A DNA stretch of 64,000 nucleotides from Schumannella sp. 10F1B-5-1. GTDB taxonomy: Bacteria > Actinomycetota > Actinomycetes > Actinomycetales > Microbacteriaceae. The notes under the pieces were generated by a model. That model made no database searches, was not told where the DNA came from, and saw only the letters and a program-made list of their open reading frames with translations. A program made the position numbers and the translations under genes. This document shows, one piece after another, positions 31,203 through 38,520 of the stretch (positions within the stretch are counted from its first letter, which is position 1; every line of letters begins with the position of its first letter). The stretch is from positions 124,001 to 188,000 of the forward strand of contig NZ_VHQH01000040.1 in the NCBI RefSeq assembly GCF_006517535.1. Direction: 5' to 3'.

Positions 31203-31583
31203 GTGACCGCTTCCGACCGTGCTCTCGAGCTTCTCCGCATCGCCGCCCTCGCCGCGGACGACAAGCAGGCCGAGGACCTGGTCGCACTGGATGTCACCGG
31301 TCCGCTTCCGCTGACCGACGTCTTCCTGCTCGCGACCGGCCGCAACGAGCGCAACGTGGTGGCGATCGCCTCGGAGATCGAGGACAAGCTCATCGAGGCG
31401 GGCGCGAAGCCGCTGCGTCGCGAGGGCCGCTCCGAGGGCCGCTGGGTGCTGATCGACTTCGGCGACCTGGTCGTGCACGTCTTCCACGAGGAGGACCGCT
31501 CGTACTACTCGCTCGAGCGCCTCTGGAAGGACTGCCCGGCGATCGCGCTCGACCTGCCGGCGCACGACGAGCAGCGCGCCTGA
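31203..31583 (+). CDS. rsfS: Ribosome silencing factor
   Basis: This 126-residue protein binds L14 and blocks subunit joining during starvation. The family core is visible: VALDVTGPLPLTDVFLLATG, ERNVVAIASEIEDKLIEAG and GDLVVHVFHEEDRSYYSLER. The GTG start follows GAGGA by about 6 nt, and a gap of 49 bp separates it from the acidic membrane protein. The order nadD-(membrane protein)-rsfS is conserved in actinobacteria. Confidence 0.95.
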   Translation: MTASDRALELLRIAALAADDKQAEDLVALDVTGPLPLTDVFLLATGRNERNVVAIASEIEDKLIEAGAKPLRREGRSEGRWVLIDFGDLVVHVFHEEDRSYYSLERLWKDCPAIALDLPAHDEQRA

Positions 31584-31659
31584 CCTGGCGCGCGCGCTCA
31601 ACCTGCATCGACTGCAGGATCTGGGCTGATCCACAAGGCCGCCTGCGAGGGTGACGGGC

Positions 31660-32061
31660 ATGAGATGCCCGAACGACGAAGCCACCCTCGTGATGAGCGA
31701 GCGCAACGGGATCGAGATCGACTACTGCCCGGAGTGCCGCGGCGTGTGGCTCGACCGTGGCGAGCTCGACAAGATCATCGACCGTGCCTCGGCGCCGGCC
31801 ACCGGTGCCGCATCCGCCGCCCCGGCCGCGCCCGTCGCCCCGGTTCAGCCGGTCGCCCAGCCCGCCGTGCAGGTGCAGCAGGCCGCGCCGCCGCCGCCGG
31901 CTCAGCCCGCCTACGACCCGCGCTACGACGGTGGCCGCTATGACGATCGCCGCTACGACGACCGGCGCTACGACAACCGCGGCGGATACGACCCCCGCTA
32001 CGGCGGACAGCAGCCGCACCGCAAGAAGAAGAACTGGCTGTCGGAGCTGTTCGACGACTGA
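31660..32061 (+). CDS. Zinc-ribbon (TFIIB-like) protein with Pro/Gln linker
   Basis: This 133-residue protein starts with a short zinc-ribbon: Cys3, then CPEC at 23-26 in IDYCPECRGVWLDRGELDKI. The first knuckle reads CPND, so one usual Cys is replaced by Asp6, and metal binding may be weakened or use Asp. A Pro/Ala/Gln linker follows, then Tyr/Arg/Asp repeats (RYDDRRYDDRRYDNRGGYDP) and a basic end with WLSELFDD. The function is not known; it may be an RNA- or membrane-associated adaptor. ATG 31660 was chosen over GTG 31651 because the family begins MxCP. Confidence 0.82.
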   Translation: MRCPNDEATLVMSERNGIEIDYCPECRGVWLDRGELDKIIDRASAPATGAASAAPAAPVAPVQPVAQPAVQVQQAAPPPPAQPAYDPRYDGGRYDDRRYDDRRYDNRGGYDPRYGGQQPHRKKKNWLSELFDD

Positions 32062-32169
32062 CCCGTCCCTTCGCCGGGATGTGGGCGGGGCGGCGACGAT
32101 GGGGTCGTCGCCTCGCTCCGCTCGCGGCGTCCCGTTCACCGGGTGGTCATCGAGCCTCGAGATCTGTTG

Positions 32170-32175
32170 TAGGCT
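32170..32175 (+). promoter_or_regulatory. -10 box of tRNA-Ala
   Basis: TAGGCT lies 26 nt before the mature tRNA. The pre-tRNA leader contains a small CCCCG-CA-CGGGG hairpin (32187-32198). Confidence 0.5.
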
Positions 32176-32201
32176 GTGATGGTTGCCCCGCACGGGGTCA
32201 C

Positions 32202-32274
32202 GGGCCTGTGGCGCAGTTGGTAGCGCACCTGCATGGCATGCAGGGGGTCAGGGGTTCGAATCCCCTCAGGTCCA
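32202..32274 (+). tRNA. tRNA-Ala (anticodon GGC)
   Basis: The 73-nt cloverleaf has acceptor arms GGGCCTG (32202-32208) and CAGGTCC (32267-32273) with discriminator A. The D arm is GCGC-AGTTGGTA-GCGC. The anticodon arm is CCTGC-ATGGCAT-GCAGG with GGC at positions 34-36, and the T arm is GGGGTTCGAATCCCC. The 3' CCA is not encoded (CC then G). It reads GCC/GCU Ala codons, GCC being abundant in this genome. A terminator follows 25 bp later. The 3' end is a possible integration site, but I found no duplicated copy downstream. Confidence 0.97.
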
Positions 32275-32299
32275 CCGAATCGCTGCGAGAGCAGCACCG

Positions 32300-32326
32300 A
32301 AGCCCCGCATCGTGCGGGGCTTTCGC
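32300..32326 (+). terminator. tRNA-Ala terminator
   Basis: AAGCCCCGCA-TCG-TGCGGGGCTT forms a 10-bp stem (32300-32322), followed by a short TCGC. Confidence 0.8.
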
Positions 32327-32361
32327 TTTCCCGGCGCAGTCCTCTCGTGCGGCAGGCGACG

Positions 32362-32616
32362 CTATTCTTTGTCGCCGCACGATTGCGCCGCGGCCTCGTC
32401 GACATCTCGTTGCCGCTTCGCGATTTCCGCGGCGACGGCTCGGTACGACGCGACCACCAATGCCATTCCGCTGGCTCCTGCGATAACACCGATCGCCACC
32501 AGGCCAGGTGCTGCCTCAGCGGCGCCTGCTCGCTTGGCGAGCTCCACGAGCTGCGCAGGTCCTCCTACTGCCTTCGCGGACTCCACAATTGCCTGGTAGT
32601 CACCCAAGTTGCTCAT
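32362..32616 (-). CDS. Small membrane protein of the tRNA-Ala island
   Basis: This 84-residue protein has a first half like a soluble helix (SNLGDYQAIVESAKAVGGPA, then QLVELAKRAGAAEAA). One membrane helix follows (PGLVAIGVIAGASGMALVVAS) and a charged end (AKRQRDVDEAAAQSCGDKE). ATG 32614-32616 has AAAGGG upstream, better than the in-frame ATG 24 bp before it. Base and codon use are less GC-rich than the flanks. It is divergent from a 288-residue orphan with a 78-bp shared spacer. No family recognised. Confidence 0.65.
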   Translation of the reverse strand: MSNLGDYQAIVESAKAVGGPAQLVELAKRAGAAEAAPGLVAIGVIAGASGMALVVASYRAVAAEIAKRQRDVDEAAAQSCGDKE

Positions 32617-32682
32617 CGATTTCCCTTTCGTTGTTTTCAAACCAAATTAGAGCGCATCCGTCGGCGAATCACAAGGTTCGGG

Positions 32683-32688
32683 TAACAT
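32683..32688 (+). promoter_or_regulatory. -10 box of the 288-residue orphan gene
   Basis: TAACAT, 6 nt before ATG 32695. Confidence 0.45.
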
Positions 32689-32694
32689 CTTGGT

Positions 32695-33561
32695 ATGACG
32701 AAAGTGGTTGCTCGGCTGGTCAGCGTCTCTTGGTGGCCCGGTAGCGACCTCGTGCCGGCGGGGCTTACCTACTTCAGCCCGCCGCAAGGACTTCCGGCGT
32801 GCGACCTAGAGGGCAACGTGAACGCATTCGAAGCAGGGCGACGGCTCGCAAGGCAAGTGGTGCCGCCGTTGATCGAGACCGGCGGTCATGTCGATACTGA
32901 GCCGGTCGCATTCTTCATCGACGACTCAGGAAGTGTGGTGCTTGTGTTTACGGCTGTTGGACCGCCTGCCGCTGGCCTCATTGATGCTGACGGAGCTCTG
33001 GTGCAGGATCCCTCTACGTCGCATTGGCGCGTGCTTGATTCGGACCGCGTTGACGACGAACCGAAGGAAATTGAGCTTGTTCGGCACCACTGGCGCGAGC
33101 AGCTGGCGACCACCTCTGCGCTATGCGACTTTCTGCCGAAGTACTTCACTGCCTCCCAGGCGCGCTCTGCATTCGACGGATTATGGGGCGGCCCTCAGGA
33201 CGCTGCCAACTTCTACCGGTGGCTGCATCGCGACAACGCGGATGCCTTCTTAAGGGTAGGTCCGGTGACCGAGGTCGCTGGCGAGCAAGAAGATGTTGTG
33301 GCTAACGCGATTGCCGAGTCGGCCGGACTTGGAGTGCAGGTGGGGCGTGCGCTGAGCGCGGGCGTCACCGCTCTCACGGCGAGTTCGAAGCTCTCCGCTC
33401 TGGGCGCCGCCGCAAGTGTGGTGCCATTTGTAGCTCTCGCCGCGGCAAGAATCTACATTTCCACGAAGCAACAGCGAGGTCCCGCGCCACAGCTCTTCGT
33501 GCGATCGGCTCCAGAACGAATTCGACTCGAGTCCCCGTACGGGCCCCGGCCAGTTCACTAG
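32695..33561 (+). CDS. Orphan protein with winged-helix-like middle and C-terminal hydrophobic segment
   Basis: This 288-residue protein is not recognised as a whole. Residues about 1-115 are a mixed alpha/beta domain (ARLVSVSWWPGSDLVPAGLT; PVAFFIDDSGSVVLVFTAVG). Residues about 140-185 (LPKYFTASQARSAFDGLWGG, then NFYRWLH) resemble the winged helix at the C-terminus of NrtR-type Nudix regulators. No Nudix box is present, so this is a distant suggestion. A Gly/Ala/Ser segment near 220-260 (SKLSALGAAASVVPFVALAA) could be a membrane helix or hairpin. GC is lower than the flanks. ATG 32695 is 6 nt after TAACAT. Confidence 0.7.
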   Translation: MTKVVARLVSVSWWPGSDLVPAGLTYFSPPQGLPACDLEGNVNAFEAGRRLARQVVPPLIETGGHVDTEPVAFFIDDSGSVVLVFTAVGPPAAGLIDADGALVQDPSTSHWRVLDSDRVDDEPKEIELVRHHWREQLATTSALCDFLPKYFTASQARSAFDGLWGGPQDAANFYRWLHRDNADAFLRVGPVTEVAGEQEDVVANAIAESAGLGVQVGRALSAGVTALTASSKLSALGAAASVVPFVALAAARIYISTKQQRGPAPQLFVRSAPERIRLESPYGPRPVH

Positions 33562-33929
33562 GGCGCCGCGCATCTTCTTCATGAGCGGGGCGCCTACCGA
33601 TGCCCGCGTTCTCGGGTCTGGATACCGCCAACGAGCGGCGTTGGGTGGACGCGTGGCGGCCGATCGGCGCCGCACGATCCTGCGCCAGCCGGTCTCCGGG
33701 GCAGCCCCGAATCACCCCGACGTTTAACGCAACCGAAACCTGGACGATGCTCGCGTCTGCCTACACTGACGCCACGCTACCCACGACGGTCGAGCCCAGG
33801 GCCGTCACGCCGCTGACGTCGTGCCCGCGCACCCGAAGTACCACGCGCATCCCGAGTTCCCCGACTCGAAAAGCGGACCTCCCCCATGACCGCTCTGCCC
33901 TGCGCTGCCCTCTCCCCGGGCGGCGCCTC
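33562..33929. other. Intergenic region and leader upstream of the GT2 synthase
   Basis: No conserved gene is seen in these 368 bp. An imperfect GGCGCC-containing hairpin (about 33560-33595) may end the orphan gene. TACACT at 33762-33767, with TGGACG 15 bp before it, is a possible promoter. The stretch 33830-33920 is C-rich and G-poor on the plus strand and holds a 15-codon ORF that ends on the GT2 start. Confidence 0.5.
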
Positions 33930-33933
33930 ATGA
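33886..33933 (+). CDS. Possible 15-codon leader peptide coupled to GT2
   Basis: ATG 33886 opens a 15-residue frame (TALPCAALSPGGAS after Met). Its TGA at 33931-33933 overlaps the GT2 ATG at 33930 as ATGA. GT2 has no ribosome site of its own, so termination-reinitiation from this ORF could supply ribosomes. The ORF has no strong ribosome site either; chance is possible. Confidence 0.35.
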   Translation: MTALPCAALSPGGAS

Positions 33934-35873
33934 GCCCCCGCCACCTCGCCCTCGTGCGCCTGCTGGCCGTGTTCGTGGTCGCCTTCGGCCTCGTCTACCT
34001 CGGCTGGCGCTGGAGCTCGACCATCCCGTGGTCGGCCTGGTGGATCGGCGTGCCCCTCGTGATCGCCGAGACCTACAGCCTCGGCGAATCGGTGCTCTAC
34101 GCGCTCACGATGTGGAACGCGAAGCGCCGCCCCAGCGCTCCCGCCGCGCTGCCCGGCCGCACGGTCGACGTCTTCATCACGACCTACAACGAGCCGCTCG
34201 AGCTCGTGCTCAACACGGCCATCCACGCTCGCGACCTGACCTACCCGCACGAGACCTGGATCCTCGACGACGGCGACCGGCCCGAGTTCCGTCGCGCCGC
34301 CGAGGAGATCGGCGTCGGCTACATCACCCGCGGCCCCGAGTGGCACGGTCGCCAGCGCTTCGCCAAGGCCGGCAACATCAACAACGCGCTCTACAGCACG
34401 GCCGGCGAGTTCATCGCGATCCTGGATGCCGACCAGGTTCCCGAGACCCGGTTCCTCGACCGGGTGCTGGGCTACTTCGACGACGAGGCCGTCGCCTTCG
34501 TGCAGACGCCGCAGTCGTTCTGGAACGTCGACCGCGCCGACCCGCTCGGCAGCGGCGCCGAGCTGTTCTACGGCCCGATCCAGCAGGGCAAGGACGGCTG
34601 GGGTGCGGCGTTCTTCTGCGGCTCCAACGCCGTGCTGCGCCGCGAGGCGATCATGGCGCTCGGCCTCACCCGCTTCTCGCGCAGCGCCCGCGGCCGCATG
34701 CGCCAGGCCCTGCGCCAGGCCCGCTCGCGCCTCACCGACCTGCAGAGCCGGCTCGCCCTGCGCGACCCGGCCCAGCTGCCGATCCTCGACCGGGCGCTCG
34801 CCGCGCTCGCGATCGCCGAGCGACAGCACCGCACCGGCGAGGTGCTCAGCGAGATCTCCTGGGAGCTGCAGCGCGGCATCCGCTCGGCCGTGATCGACGG
34901 CGACGAAGAGGCCTCGGCCGCCGTGATCGGCGAGCTGGATGCGGCGGTCGAGTCGGTCGAGGTCGCGCGCACCGACCAGGCGCTCGCCGTGCACGCGCTC
35001 GACACCTCGAGCATCACCGAGGACATGGCGACCGCGATGCACCTGCACGCGATGGGCTGGACGAGCGTCTACCACCACGAGGTGCTCGTGCACGGGCTCG
35101 CGCCCGAGGACGTGCGCACGATGCTCACCCAGCGCAAGCGCTGGGCATCCGGCTCGATGCAGGTCTTCTTCGCCGAGAACCCGCTGTTCCTCAAGGGGCT
35201 CAGCCTCGCGCAGCGCTTCATGTACCTCGCCACGATGACGAGCTACCTCAACGGCTTCGCGGCCCTCGTCTACATCGCGGCGCCGATCGTGTTCCTCACC
35301 ACCGGGATCTTCCCGCTCGCGGCCGACGCGAGCGTGTTCCTGCTCTACTTCGTGCCGATGTTCCTGACCTGCCAGCTGCTGTTCCAGGCGGCGGGGCGCG
35401 GGTCGAGCGGACTGTGGCGCGGTCAGCAGATGTCGTTCGCCCTGTTCCCGACCTGGATCTCGGCGACGCTCTCGGGCGCCGCGGCATCCCTGCTCGGCAA
35501 GCACCTCTCGTTCTCGGTCACCGCCAAGTCGAAGCAGGGCGACGGCGGTGCCGACTACCGCGCCATCTGGCCCCAGCTTCTCGCGATCGGCCTGCTGGCG
35601 GTCGCCGCCGGCATCGGCATCGTGCGCGCCGCGACAGGGGATGCACCTCTCATCGCGACGCTGCTGACCCTGCTGTGGGTCGCTCTCGATTTCGTGCTCA
35701 TCGGATCGATGGTGCGCGCGGCCCGCTACCGCGGCCCCTCGTCCGACGTCGTCGATCCGCTGCCGCCGACCGACGAGCACCGCCGTGTGCTCGCCCTTCT
35801 GGCGAAGGAGTCCGCCGCCCGCGCCGAGGCGCGCCGCCCGGACTCGCCCGCCTCCCTGCCCGCCTCCGACTGA
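33930..35873 (+). CDS. Processive GT2 glycosyltransferase (cellulose/mannan synthase-like) with helical insertion
   Basis: This 647-residue membrane synthase has two N-terminal helices, a cytoplasmic GT-A domain and four or more C-terminal helices. GT motifs are TYNEPLELVLNTA, DDGDRPEF, DADQVPET, TED at 363-365 and QRKRW in LTQRKRWASGSMQ, as in BcsA-type beta-glycan synthases that extrude polysaccharide from UDP- or GDP-sugars. Between the GSNAVLRREAI acceptor segment and TED lies an extra helical stretch of about 115 residues (about 246-360), rich in Arg, Ala and Glu. The family normally has only a short link there. No PilZ domain is evident. The product is unknown; the nearby GH26 suggests a mannan-type chain. 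Confidence 0.88.
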   Translation: MSPRHLALVRLLAVFVVAFGLVYLGWRWSSTIPWSAWWIGVPLVIAETYSLGESVLYALTMWNAKRRPSAPAALPGRTVDVFITTYNEPLELVLNTAIHARDLTYPHETWILDDGDRPEFRRAAEEIGVGYITRGPEWHGRQRFAKAGNINNALYSTAGEFIAILDADQVPETRFLDRVLGYFDDEAVAFVQTPQSFWNVDRADPLGSGAELFYGPIQQGKDGWGAAFFCGSNAVLRREAIMALGLTRFSRSARGRMRQALRQARSRLTDLQSRLALRDPAQLPILDRALAALAIAERQHRTGEVLSEISWELQRGIRSAVIDGDEEASAAVIGELDAAVESVEVARTDQALAVHALDTSSITEDMATAMHLHAMGWTSVYHHEVLVHGLAPEDVRTMLTQRKRWASGSMQVFFAENPLFLKGLSLAQRFMYLATMTSYLNGFAALVYIAAPIVFLTTGIFPLAADASVFLLYFVPMFLTCQLLFQAAGRGSSGLWRGQQMSFALFPTWISATLSGAAASLLGKHLSFSVTAKSKQGDGGADYRAIWPQLLAIGLLAVAAGIGIVRAATGDAPLIATLLTLLWVALDFVLIGSMVRAARYRGPSSDVVDPLPPTDEHRRVLALLAKESAARAEARRPDSPASLPASD

Positions 35874-36014
35874 CCGGACCGCCCTCCGGCCCCGACCTCC
35901 CCGAATACCCGGCTCCTCCGAAACGCACCTCCCGCACCACCGCTCCACCCGCGTCCCCGCGCATCCCGAGCACCCCTCTCGCCCCCGCACCACCGAAACC
36001 CCCAGGAGATCCCC
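35874..36014 (+). promoter_or_regulatory. C-rich, G-poor spacer between GT2 and STAS genes
   Basis: From about 35895 to 36003 the plus strand is dominated by C with A and very few G (for example CACCTCCCGCACCACCGCTC). Such unstructured C-rich RNA is the pattern of Rho loading sites. It could attenuate transcription between synthase and the downstream genes. An AGGAGAT ribosome site for the STAS gene closes the spacer. Confidence 0.45.
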
Positions 36015-36362
36015 GTGTCGCTGCTCACCGCTCCCGTCACGAGCACCGCCCCGCTCGCCGTCGACCTCGAGGTCGACGGAGCCCTCGACGCCGCCGCCGT
36101 CCTGCGGCTGCGCCGCGACGTCGTCGCCTCGCAGGTCGACGGACCCGCCATCGTGCTGGTCGACGTCACCGGCGTCGACCGCGTCACCGCGTCCGGCATC
36201 GCCGGACTGCTCGAGCTGCTGCGCATCGCCCGGTCCGCCGGGGGAGAGCTGCGCGTCGTCGGCGAGTCCGCCGGCCTCGCCACGGCCCGCGCCGCGCTGC
36301 AGCTCACCACCGTCGTGGCCGTCTACCGCGGACGCGCGCATGCCCTCGCCGGAATCGCCTGA
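36015..36362 (+). CDS. Stand-alone STAS domain protein
   Basis: This 115-residue protein is a single STAS fold: VDLEVDGALDAAAVLRLRRD, then IVLVDVTGVDRVTASGIAGL and ELLRIARSAGGELRVVGESA. The Ser in TASGI aligns with the phosphorylated Ser of anti-sigma factor antagonists (DSSG type), although the preceding residues differ. Such proteins act in partner-switching with a kinase; none is visible here. Its place between a polysaccharide synthase and a glycosidase suggests it regulates the cassette. The GTG start follows AGGAGAT. The last 23 bp overlap the GH26 start. Confidence 0.83.
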   Translation: MSLLTAPVTSTAPLAVDLEVDGALDAAAVLRLRRDVVASQVDGPAIVLVDVTGVDRVTASGIAGLLELLRIARSAGGELRVVGESAGLATARAALQLTTVVAVYRGRAHALAGIA

Positions 36363-37590
36363 GCCCGGCTTCGTCGGCCACCCGCCGACGAAGCGCCGGC
36401 GGCCGAGCCTGCTCGTGCCGCTGGTCATCATGGCGCTCGTGGCGGGCGGCATCGCGGTCGGCTCGAACCAGCTCGCCTCGCAGGCCATCTCCCCGGTCGC
36501 GAGCACGCGCGACTGCCTCGCCGGCGATCGCGCCGCGCTCGTGCCCGAGACCGGCGTGCTGTTCGGCGTCAACCTCGACTGGGACACCGAGACGCTCGCC
36601 GAGCACGCCGAGAACATCGGTCACAAGGCCGCCGTCAGCGTGCAGTTCAGCGACATCCCCTATGACCGGGCGACCTGGCAGCACACGCTCGGCGCCGTCG
36701 AGCAGGTCAAGGCGAACGGCGGCATCCTGCTGCTGACGCTCGAGCCGCACGGCGGGCTGCTCACGATGAGCGACACCGTCATCCAGCGGCTCGCGAAGGA
36801 TCTGCGCGACATCAACGCCGACGGCGTTCCGGTGATCGTGCGGTTCGCGCACGAGATGAACGGCTCCTGGTACGCCTGGGGGCAGCAGCCCGAGCTCTAT
36901 GTCGAGACGTTTCGCCGGGTCGCCGAGGCCGTGCACGAGCGCGCGCCGCTGACGTCGATGATGTGGGCGCCGAACTACGGTGGCGGCTATCCGTTCACCG
37001 GCGGTCAGTTCGCGGCGCAGCCCGGCACGGCCGACTTCGCCGATCTCGACACCGACGGCGACGGCGTGCTCACGATGTCGGACGACAGCTACGCCCCCTA
37101 CTTCCCGGGGGATGACGCGGTCGACTGGGTGGGCATCTCGCTCTACCACTGGGGCAATCAGCGGCCGTGGGGCGACAACGACATCGCCGAGCCGGACAAG
37201 TTCGCCGACATGCTGACCGGCACCTACAACGGCACGGCGGGTGACGACGCGGCGATCCCCGACTTCTACCAGGTCTATGGCGTCGACCACGATCACCCGG
37301 TCGCGATCCCCGAGACGGCGGCGATCTACACGCCGTCGCGCGGCGACGAACCGGGCAGCTCGAGCGAGCTCGCCGTCAAGAGCGCCTGGTGGGACCAGGT
37401 GTTCTCCGACGACATCCCGAACGAGTTCCCGCAGCTCAAGATGATCAACTGGTTCGAGTGGAAGAAGGTCGAGGTCGAGATCGACGACACCGTCGACTGG
37501 CGGGCGGCGAGCAGCAAGGCCACCCGCTCGGCGTTCGCGAAGGCCCTGCCCTCCTGGCTCGACTACGCCGACGACGTGAAGGCCTGCTGA
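36340..37590 (+). CDS. Membrane-anchored GH26 (beta-mannanase-like) glycosidase
   Basis: This 416-residue protein has a cytoplasmic basic N-terminus, an uncleaved anchor (about 19-40; LLVPLVIMALVAGGIAVGSN) and an extracellular (beta/alpha)8 GH26 domain. The acid/base is Glu172 in VIVRFAHEMNGSWYAWG and the likely nucleophile Glu325 in VAIPETAAIYTPSR. The segment PLTSMMWAPNYGGGYPF is also GH26-like. A DTDGDG calcium-loop motif (near 231-242) precedes a conserved VDWVGISLYHWG strand. GH26 enzymes mostly cut beta-1,4-mannan, some mixed-linkage glucan. It probably trims or releases the polymer made by the upstream GT2. ATG 36340 overlaps the STAS gene by 23 bp. Confidence 0.88.
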   Translation: MPSPESPEPGFVGHPPTKRRRPSLLVPLVIMALVAGGIAVGSNQLASQAISPVASTRDCLAGDRAALVPETGVLFGVNLDWDTETLAEHAENIGHKAAVSVQFSDIPYDRATWQHTLGAVEQVKANGGILLLTLEPHGGLLTMSDTVIQRLAKDLRDINADGVPVIVRFAHEMNGSWYAWGQQPELYVETFRRVAEAVHERAPLTSMMWAPNYGGGYPFTGGQFAAQPGTADFADLDTDGDGVLTMSDDSYAPYFPGDDAVDWVGISLYHWGNQRPWGDNDIAEPDKFADMLTGTYNGTAGDDAAIPDFYQVYGVDHDHPVAIPETAAIYTPSRGDEPGSSSELAVKSAWWDQVFSDDIPNEFPQLKMINWFEWKKVEVEIDDTVDWRAASSKATRSAFAKALPSWLDYADDVKAC

Positions 37591-37608
37591 GCGCCGGGGT
37601 CCCGCGAC

Positions 37609-37640
37609 GGGCGGTGACGCGGTCGGGCGGTGACGCGGTC
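37609..37640. repeat. Tandem 16-bp duplication before the A1S_2505-like gene
   Basis: GGGCGGTGACGCGGTC occurs twice in direct tandem (37609-37624 and 37625-37640), between the GH26 stop and the next start. Confidence 0.8.
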
Positions 37641-37670
37641 GGCGCGGGTAACGTCGAGCGCGGAGGATCC

Positions 37671-38114
37671 ATGAGCGACAACGTGACCACCGGCGCCGGC
37701 GGGCGCGCGATCAGCGCGGCGCAGATCGACGTGCTCGCCGACGGCGAGGTGTTCGTCTTCGGCTCGAATCCGGCCGGGCACCACGCGGCCGGCGCCGCCC
37801 GCTTCGCCGTCGAGCGCTTCGGCGCCGTCGTCGGCGAGGGGCATGGGATGCACGGCCGCAGCTACGCGATCGACACCATGAGCGGGTTGCCGGTGCTGCG
37901 CGCCGAGGCGGCGACGTTCCTCTCCTTCGCGGCCGCGCATCCCGAGCTGACCTTCCTCGTGACCGAGGTCGGCTGCGGCATCGCCGGGTACGTGCCCGAG
38001 GAGGTCGCGCCGGCGTTCGCGGGCGCCGGGGCGAACGTGGCGCTGCCGGCGTCGTTCGCCGCGGTGCTCGACGAGGCCGCGCCGGGGGAGCCCGGCGTCG
38101 CGCCGGGGGAGTAG
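37671..38114 (+). CDS. A1S_2505-like Gly-rich small protein
   Basis: This 147-residue protein centres on EVFVFGSNPAGHHAAGAARF and AVVGEGHGMHGRSYAIDTM, followed by FLVTEVGCGIAGYVPEEVAP. The pattern FVFGSN-x-GxHxxGAA is shared with small proteins labelled A1S_2505 family phage non-structural proteins. It resembles a Rossmann- or macro-like nucleotide-binding core. The biochemical role is unknown; a nucleotide or ADP-ribose ligand would be guesswork. ATG 37671 follows GGAGGA. No phage genes are nearby. Confidence 0.75.
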   Translation: MSDNVTTGAGGRAISAAQIDVLADGEVFVFGSNPAGHHAAGAARFAVERFGAVVGEGHGMHGRSYAIDTMSGLPVLRAEAATFLSFAAAHPELTFLVTEVGCGIAGYVPEEVAPAFAGAGANVALPASFAAVLDEAAPGEPGVAPGE

Positions 38115-38134
38115 CCCGCGGGATGCCGCCCGCC

Positions 38135-38140
38135 TACACT
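38135..38140 (+). promoter_or_regulatory. -10 box of the DUF1801 gene
   Basis: TACACT, 6 nt before ATG 38147. Confidence 0.5.
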
Positions 38141-38146
38141 GCGGGC

Positions 38147-38497
38147 ATGGCGGCGCCGACGACGATCGACGAGTACCTGGCGGGATTCCCCGACGATAAG
38201 CGCGCCGTGCTGCAGCAGATGCGGGAGCGCATCCTGAGCGTCAGGCCCGACGCGGTCGAGATGATCAAGTACGGCATGCCGACCTTCGAGATGCCGAACG
38301 GCTACCGCATGTATTTCGCGGGCTGGGCGAAGCACATCGGCGTCTACCCGGTGCCGCGCGGCGACGACGACTTCGAGACGGCCGTCGCGCCCTATCGGCA
38401 CGCGAAGGACACCGTGCGGTTCGCGTTGCGGGAGCCGGTGCCGCGGGAGCTCGTCGACCGCATCACGGCGCACATCGCCGCGCGCCGCGCCTCCTGA
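38147..38497 (+). CDS. DUF1801 (YdhG-like) protein
   Basis: This 116-residue protein has the family pattern TIDEYLAGFPDDKRAVLQQM, MIKYGMPTFEMPNGYRMYF and GWAKHIGVYPVPRG. The fold is related to frataxin/YdhG; the function is not established. ATG 38147 was chosen over an upstream GTG frame because TACACT ends 6 nt before it and the family starts near residue 1. It is convergent with a Nudix gene. Confidence 0.87.
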   Translation: MAAPTTIDEYLAGFPDDKRAVLQQMRERILSVRPDAVEMIKYGMPTFEMPNGYRMYFAGWAKHIGVYPVPRGDDDFETAVAPYRHAKDTVRFALREPVPRELVDRITAHIAARRAS

Positions 38498-38520
38498 CTG
38501 ACCAATCCGGGACGGGGCCG

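Follow-up and report, generated by a model that had tools for sequence, protein, structure and literature searches.

A BcsA-like GT2 synthase, a STAS protein and a GH26 glycosidase form a conserved actinobacterial cassette for a predicted exopolysaccharide, with STAS as the candidate controller

The control of processive β-glycan synthases is best known via c-di-GMP and the PilZ domain, and an actinobacterial family of these enzymes is instead accompanied by a STAS protein, mostly together with a kinase and a phosphatase. The locus described here lies in a 64,000-nucleotide stretch of DNA from Schumannella sp. 10F1B-5-1 (the window; contig NZ_VHQH01000040.1, positions 124,001 to 188,000) and contains such a synthase followed by a STAS gene and a gene for a GH26 glycosidase. 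It raises the question of what this STAS protein acts on, and of which polymer the three gene products would make and process. From the comparisons below we consider it fairly likely that the cassette specifies an exopolysaccharide by a synthase-dependent route, with STAS controlling the synthase instead of c-di-GMP and PilZ. Its features, in window coordinates, are the following.

33717..33903, plus strand: conserved upstream block, 80-83% identical to two congeners; the DNA before the block differs.
33886..33933, plus strand: 15-codon ORF in another frame than GT2, overlapping the GT2 start (ATGA), with its ATG co-placed in both congeners.
33930..35873, plus strand: processive GT2 synthase, BcsA-like, 647 aa, without PilZ (by Pfam, motifs, and BcsA as nearest relative in sequence and fold).
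34641..34958, plus strand: helical insert of GT2, residues 238-343, between FFCGS and TED (predicted structure).
35511..35528, plus strand: GT2 gating-loop motif FSVTAK, aligned with F.VT.K of BcsA.
36015..36362, plus strand: stand-alone STAS protein, 115 aa (Pfam; neighbour of GT2 in 75 of 80 relatives).
36192..36194, plus strand: STAS Ser60, in the motif TASG instead of DSSG (alignment of STAS proteins).
36340..37590, plus strand: GH26 glycosidase, 416 aa, with an N-terminal membrane anchor (Pfam, catalytic residues, fold).

The GT2, STAS and GH26 genes are consecutive on the plus strand and the last two share a 23-bp overlap, as an earlier sequence-only reading of the window had described; the ORFs and Pfam bear this out. 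The same reading began the GT2 gene at 33886, and this coordinate had to be corrected to 33930. Position 33886 is out of frame, and translation from there to the GT2 end meets eight stops. The ATG at 33886 opens the 15-codon ORF, the TGA of which overlaps the GT2 ATG. The STAS gene has a GTG start with AGGAG ahead of it. The block at 33717..33903 is probably the promoter or leader of the operon, to judge from its conservation. In the three pairs formed by the window and its congeners G003 and G004, dN/dS is 0.16-0.24 for GT2, 0.29-0.42 for STAS and 0.18-0.22 for GH26, values that indicate purifying selection on each gene. The weakest constraint is that on STAS (up to 0.42), which counts against the explanation favoured here.

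The GT2 protein exceeds the Pfam cut-offs for Cellulose_synt, Glyco_trans_2_3 and Glycos_transf_2, and its nearest relative, both by sequence and by predicted fold, is BcsA. The motifs DDG, D.D, TED, QR.RW and F.VT.K are invariant across 47 GT2 rows including the window; we take F.VT.K to be the gating-loop motif of BcsA, and part of the BcsA motif list is likewise our assumption. The cassette thus resembles the BcsA/BcsZ pair in its processive synthase, which carries the motifs D, D, D, Q..RW, TED and F.VT.K, and in the dedicated glycosidase encoded next to it; in cellulose systems this is BcsZ, of family GH8, which trims or releases the polymer. The cassette differs in the lack of a PilZ domain (absent from the window GT2 by Pfam), in the helical insert, in the adjoining or fused STAS, in a GH26 in place of the GH8, and in a TIGR03030 (CelA) score of 340.6 bits, below the cut-off of 699.1.

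The conservation of the arrangement was examined in 80 loci of named genomes, the best of at least 550 relatives found by a five-row GT2 alignment search, a sample of close relatives only that includes several near-copies. Genes around the loci were called as stop-to-stop frames scored by home-built models; in this and the further samples, some stretches end near GT2 at a contig end (for example, L239 and L243), where genes beyond would be missed. Among these best 80, the STAS gene lies directly 3' of GT2 in 75, and two classes can be distinguished. Class I loci (14 of 80) have the order GT2-STAS-GH26 without kinase or phosphatase alongside. They come from five actinobacterial families, with the genera Schumannella, Arthrobacter/Paenarthrobacter, Oerskovia, Sediminihabitans, Mycobacterium, Mycolicibacterium, Gordonia and Pseudoclavibacter; the three-gene neighbourhood, whose absence from relatives would have refuted the sequence-only reading by its own account, is therefore present. 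In class II (61 of 80), STAS is followed by an RsbW-like kinase of HATPase_c_2 type, and 58 of the 61 have a SpoIIE-type PP2C phosphatase 5' of GT2 according to the home-built models. Pfam confirms two of the class II kinases and two of the phosphatases, and the two phosphatases scanned carry a REC or GAF domain. This kinase/phosphatase switch of most close relatives was missed in the earlier reading and is absent at the window locus, where models of both proteins found neither in window positions 24001-48000.

No locus among the 80 combines STAS and a class II kinase with a class I GH26 downstream. The five loci without STAS directly behind GT2 (L051, L053, L055, L061 and L087) count against the favoured explanation; in three of them (L055, L061 and L087), STAS and a kinase are encoded at another place in the stretch. 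A quick tree with a midpoint root and no outgroup unites class I and the window in one clade (SH-aLRT 100) and does not distinguish kinase loss in class I from kinase gain in class II. Both classes occur together in four records, Arthrobacter sp. EpRS71, Arthrobacter sp. cf158, Paenarthrobacter sp. AR 02 and the metagenome-assembled RL58_bin.064. Because the same gene order is found in both congeners (of four) that hold a close GH26 homologue, and in 14 of the 80 relatives, the arrangement is not a chance one.

A second sample covers the Microbacteriaceae: a GT2 match at 1e-100 was obtained in 70 of 398 genomes, and all of the resulting 72 loci were examined. It partly overlaps the first sample, at least five loci being common to both (L028/L035, L222/L047, L186/L052, L182/L104 and L207/L109). 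Counted on unmerged model hits, with an OpgC model that includes out-of-frame N-terminal sequence, STAS adjoins GT2 in 64 of the 72 loci and the kinase in 61, and a phosphatase lies within the stretch in 54. Five loci, including the window, belong to class I, and none of the 72 has STAS, a downstream stand-alone GH26 and the kinase together. Seven loci of one genus (L032, L159-L164) show GT2, kinase and GH26/OpgC with no STAS alongside, and the GT2 of this group bears the insert, as seen in L032 and L227; an insert can therefore occur without a STAS gene next to it, which counts against the favoured explanation. One genome of this genus, G131, carries a STAS-kinase pair on another contig.

More distant synthases look different. 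Related GT2s at 1e-20 occur in 25 of 296 genomes across the phylum, and the 16 loci examined comprise all but the window's own and the weaker matches in G524, G538, G545, G578, G588, G599, G621 and G662. In 15 of them GT2 has neither the insert nor an adjoining STAS (L240 has a STAS gene on the opposite strand at a distance of about 2.8 kb), and nine of the 15 have PilZ. The other six show no PilZ and no adjoining STAS either, so that a GT2 without PilZ need not be accompanied by STAS. The sixteenth locus, L242, contains an insert-bearing GT2 together with phosphatase, STAS, kinase and GH26-OpgC. The gap between FFCGS and TED measures 20 residues in all 15 distant GT2s, compared with 130 in the window and 170-172 in three class II proteins. 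In the window it includes the insert, predicted as four helices (pLDDT 73-93 per ten-residue block), which is a candidate docking site for STAS. Insert and STAS are contrasted here across a single deep split of the family and so do not represent independent events.

The STAS protein itself scores 35.1 bits with Pfam STAS (cut-off 22.6). Its Ser60 occupies what we take to be the position of the phosphoserine of SpoIIAA among the anti-sigma antagonists. The motif DSSG around this position is present in 61 of 61 STAS proteins encoded next to a kinase vs 0 of 15 in class I (window included), so that the putative phosphosite tracks the presence of the kinase and is eroded in class I. The serine itself is kept in 14 of the 15 class I proteins and is alanine in L047, as it also is in congener G003 (TAAG) and in L220.

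These features bear on the alternative that STAS is an ordinary anti-sigma-factor antagonist, which would affect transcription via the kinase and a sigma factor, its adjacency to GT2 reflecting co-regulation only. The STAS protein, HATPase_c_2 kinase and SpoIIE-type phosphatase of class II are the usual parts of such a switch, and DSSG is intact in all 61 class II loci. In the genome of the window, four of nine HATPase_c_2 matches and one SpoIIE-family match exceed the Pfam cut-offs, so that some other switch is possible there. However, all nine HATPase_c_2 matches lie in open frames of at least 334 aa, unlike the class II kinases looked at (137-159 aa), and the window STAS reaches only 24.8 bits with the anti-sigma antagonist model TIGR00377 (cut-off 53.45). 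Moreover, the class II kinase model gave no hits in five of five class I genomes, including that of the window, and two hits in the control genome G131; STAS nevertheless persists beside GT2 in these class I genomes. Together with the gene fusions described next, these observations make an ordinary antagonist unlikely.

Four genomes encode GT2 and STAS in a single open frame: Mycobacterium sp. ACS4331, Mycolicibacterium sp. CBMA 226, Pseudoclavibacter sp. CFCC 11306 and the Pseudoclavibacter genome G158. In the fused proteins (L042, L043, L047, which equals L222, and L220), STAS is C-terminal, at the position taken by PilZ in BcsA. For L042 and L047 the STAS part is also recognised by Pfam; in L043 Pfam gives no match, and L043 and L220 rest on the home-built model. 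Searches for PilZ (E 0.001) and for GGDEF each found nothing in six Microbacteriaceae genomes (that of the window and five others), and the same searches gave matches in five and eight, respectively, of 14 well-known genomes used as controls. That STAS acts on the synthase is probable in view of the fusions, the STAS that outlives its kinase, the phosphosite that tracks the kinase, the lack of PilZ and GGDEF in the searched genomes, and the contrast with the distant GT2s. The earlier proposal of STAS in place of c-di-GMP/PilZ control thereby gains support from the neighbourhood across families, the fusions and the six genomes. The fusions may overstate the specificity of the link, since all4160 of Anabaena is known as a glycosyltransferase that carries STAS at its N-terminus (available text of PMC8256260).

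In the mechanism that we propose, with STAS acting on the synthase, the BcsA-like GT2 would polymerise a β-glycan and export it across the membrane. STAS would probably bind the cytosolic side of GT2, either at the insert, which lies close to the TED/QR.RW active site, or at the PilZ-equivalent C-terminus, and once bound would set the admission of substrate by the gating loop, the role of which in BcsA is described in the available text of PMC10374906. In class II, the neighbouring PP2C phosphatase and RsbW-like kinase would switch STAS by dephosphorylation and phosphorylation of the DSSG serine. In class I, neither kinase nor phosphatase is encoded at the locus, the kinase was not found in the tested genomes and DSSG is eroded; there, STAS probably serves as an activating subunit that is either constitutive or gated in another way, and some species have it fused to the synthase. 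GH26, held by its membrane anchor on the outer side of the cell where the polymer emerges, would trim or release it, like BcsZ. Gene order, domains, motifs, fusions and clades were computed directly, as was the lack of detectable PilZ, GGDEF and class II kinase; from these we infer STAS-GT2 binding, the direction of regulation, the phosphorylation and the identity of the polymer. In broader terms, we lean slightly towards STAS as a second, c-di-GMP-independent class of allosteric subunit, with a class II switch that acts on the synthase and not on a sigma factor, and a class I reduced to a constitutive, in places fused, STAS.

The GH26 protein matches its Pfam family with 45.3 bits (cut-off 20.2). 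Residues His171-Glu172 and Glu325 are invariant in 16 rows including the window, and Glu172 and Glu325 are presumably the catalytic Glu pair of GH26. The N-terminus is Arg-rich and has a single hydrophobic helix (by eye roughly residues 23-40; 26-40 in the predicted model); because this helix precedes the catalytic domain, the domain should sit outside the cell. The predicted model is mediocre (pLDDT 69.5), and its fold is nearest to GH26 and other TIM-barrel glycosidases.

As to the polymer, the sequence-only reading had favoured a mannan-like product. A mannan or glucomannan, with GH26 as a mannanase, would fit the many solved GH26 relatives that are mannanases, and the family profile matches the mannanase YdhT and the lichenase equally (8e-8 and 9e-8), i.e. 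they tie. The lichenase CtLic26A, however, ranks first for the window GH26 both in a single-sequence search and with Foldseek. VIA-align Z values of 19.6-19.9 for xylanase-type GH26, 18.7 for the lichenase and at most 18.6 for mannanases, a marginal spread on a mediocre model, settle nothing and make a xylan possible too; with such a model and an indecisive ranking, the substrate is not decided from structure. The neighbourhoods of relatives favour a β-glucan. A further, weaker-scoring GH26 lies within 6 kb in 7 of 14 class I loci and in 7 of 66 other loci. Two of those 14, from L042 and L053, were compared, and both have CtLic26A as best solved-structure match (2e-31 and 2e-48), that of the class I locus L042 being CtLic26A-like along its length. 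In addition, a gene of one GH16 cluster is nearby in 6 of 14 class I loci, Pfam-confirmed in three (L036, L040 and L041), and the one compared, from L036, is nearest to β-1,3-glucanases. The home-built models saw no additional GH26 in window positions 24001-48000. Lichenase activity occurs in GH16 as well as in GH26, and both families are found near the loci of relatives, so the polymer is most likely a β-glucan made from UDP-glucose, perhaps a mixed-linkage one. With BcsA nearest to GT2, a mannan or glucomannan is only a minor possibility. The mannan part of the earlier interpretation thus finds no support here, and its other part, a synthase, a controller and a trimming enzyme of one exopolysaccharide, is retained on the strength of the conserved neighbourhood and the fusions.

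The GH26 could also be a scavenging enzyme that lies beside the synthase by chance, as other Microbacteriaceae have close GH26 homologues that lie apart from GT2 or in a genome without such a GT2. This is very unlikely against the GT2-STAS-GH26 order in 14 of 80 loci, from five families and one clade. Moreover, another GH26-like domain, fused to OpgC, adjoins GT2 in 12 of the 61 class II loci, and five class II loci of the 72-locus sample (L170, L173, L198, L218 and L223) have a close stand-alone GH26 farther off, upstream or on the other strand. The association of GH26 with the synthase is thus preferred.

The OpgC-fused protein, assigned as GH26-like::OpgC_C by Pfam on examples, is about 800-1000 aa long (L032, L033, L034 and class II loci). 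In the 15 of 80 loci that have it, its His-Glu stretch reads APE in ten, APQ in three and GAE in one, with one unread; APQ is found in L032 and APD in L033 and L034, so that Pro-Glu, Pro-Gln or Pro-Asp stands in for His-Glu in almost every protein read. A simply dead domain was considered and rejected on these readings. The link to the OpgC acyltransferase (Pfam OpgC_C) holds for these class II fusions adjoining GT2, whereas the window GH26 has no OpgC domain.

Several known systems share parts of the cassette. RiGT2 of Romboutsia ilealis is likewise a Gram-positive BcsA-like GT2 that makes (1,3;1,4)-β-glucan, with no increase by c-di-GMP in vitro, but it retains a PilZ domain that is required for activity, and STAS is not mentioned in the available text (PMC10374906). 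The nearest regulatory precedent, as far as the accessible portions of these papers go, is SypE/SypA of Vibrio fischeri. Here and in HmpU/V/W of Nostoc, a kinase/phosphatase-controlled STAS promotes polysaccharide or biofilm formation (PMC4517449, PMC10120452, PMC11112999, PMC8256260). The target of STAS is unknown in those systems according to the same portions, SypA being described as having an as yet unknown target (PMC10120452) or as acting at an unknown level (PMC11112999), whereas in our loci a single synthase gene precedes that for STAS, and some species have the two fused. The wps-1 cluster of Actinoplanes missouriensis is an actinobacterial exopolysaccharide cluster with GT2 and GH26 genes, but it is predicted to be of the Wzx/Wzy type, and STAS is absent from the wording of its main text as available (PMC13390465). 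Among open-licence papers searched with narrow terms, none was found to describe a synthase of this type that is controlled by, or fused to, a STAS protein. The natural GT2-STAS fusions offer a named candidate target for non-sigma STAS proteins and a directly testable system.

Two further observations concern the same genome. A second GT2-GH26 locus is present (L244 6076-9072 and onward, in G000:C322), in a frame that ends in a GH26 by Pfam and includes 24 bases N; the start of this frame we take to resemble a GT2-type membrane protein, and the next frame presumably resembles a UDP-glucose 6-dehydrogenase. Weak GH26 matches of a similar kind are present in congeners. In window positions 31500-38500, the search for RNA elements returned only a tRNA-Ala, an mgtE match being far under the gathering score (22.4 vs 200). 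Shortly 3' of this tRNA-Ala(GGC) (32202-32276) lies a 1.4-kb segment of lower GC content (32337-33716; about 62% vs 71%) that contains an ORF without Pfam match (32695-33561). The matching region is about 15 bases long in congener G003 and about 1.2 kb in G004, where a 272-aa ORF was called. On this comparison, the segment just upstream of the cassette is an insertion hotspot.
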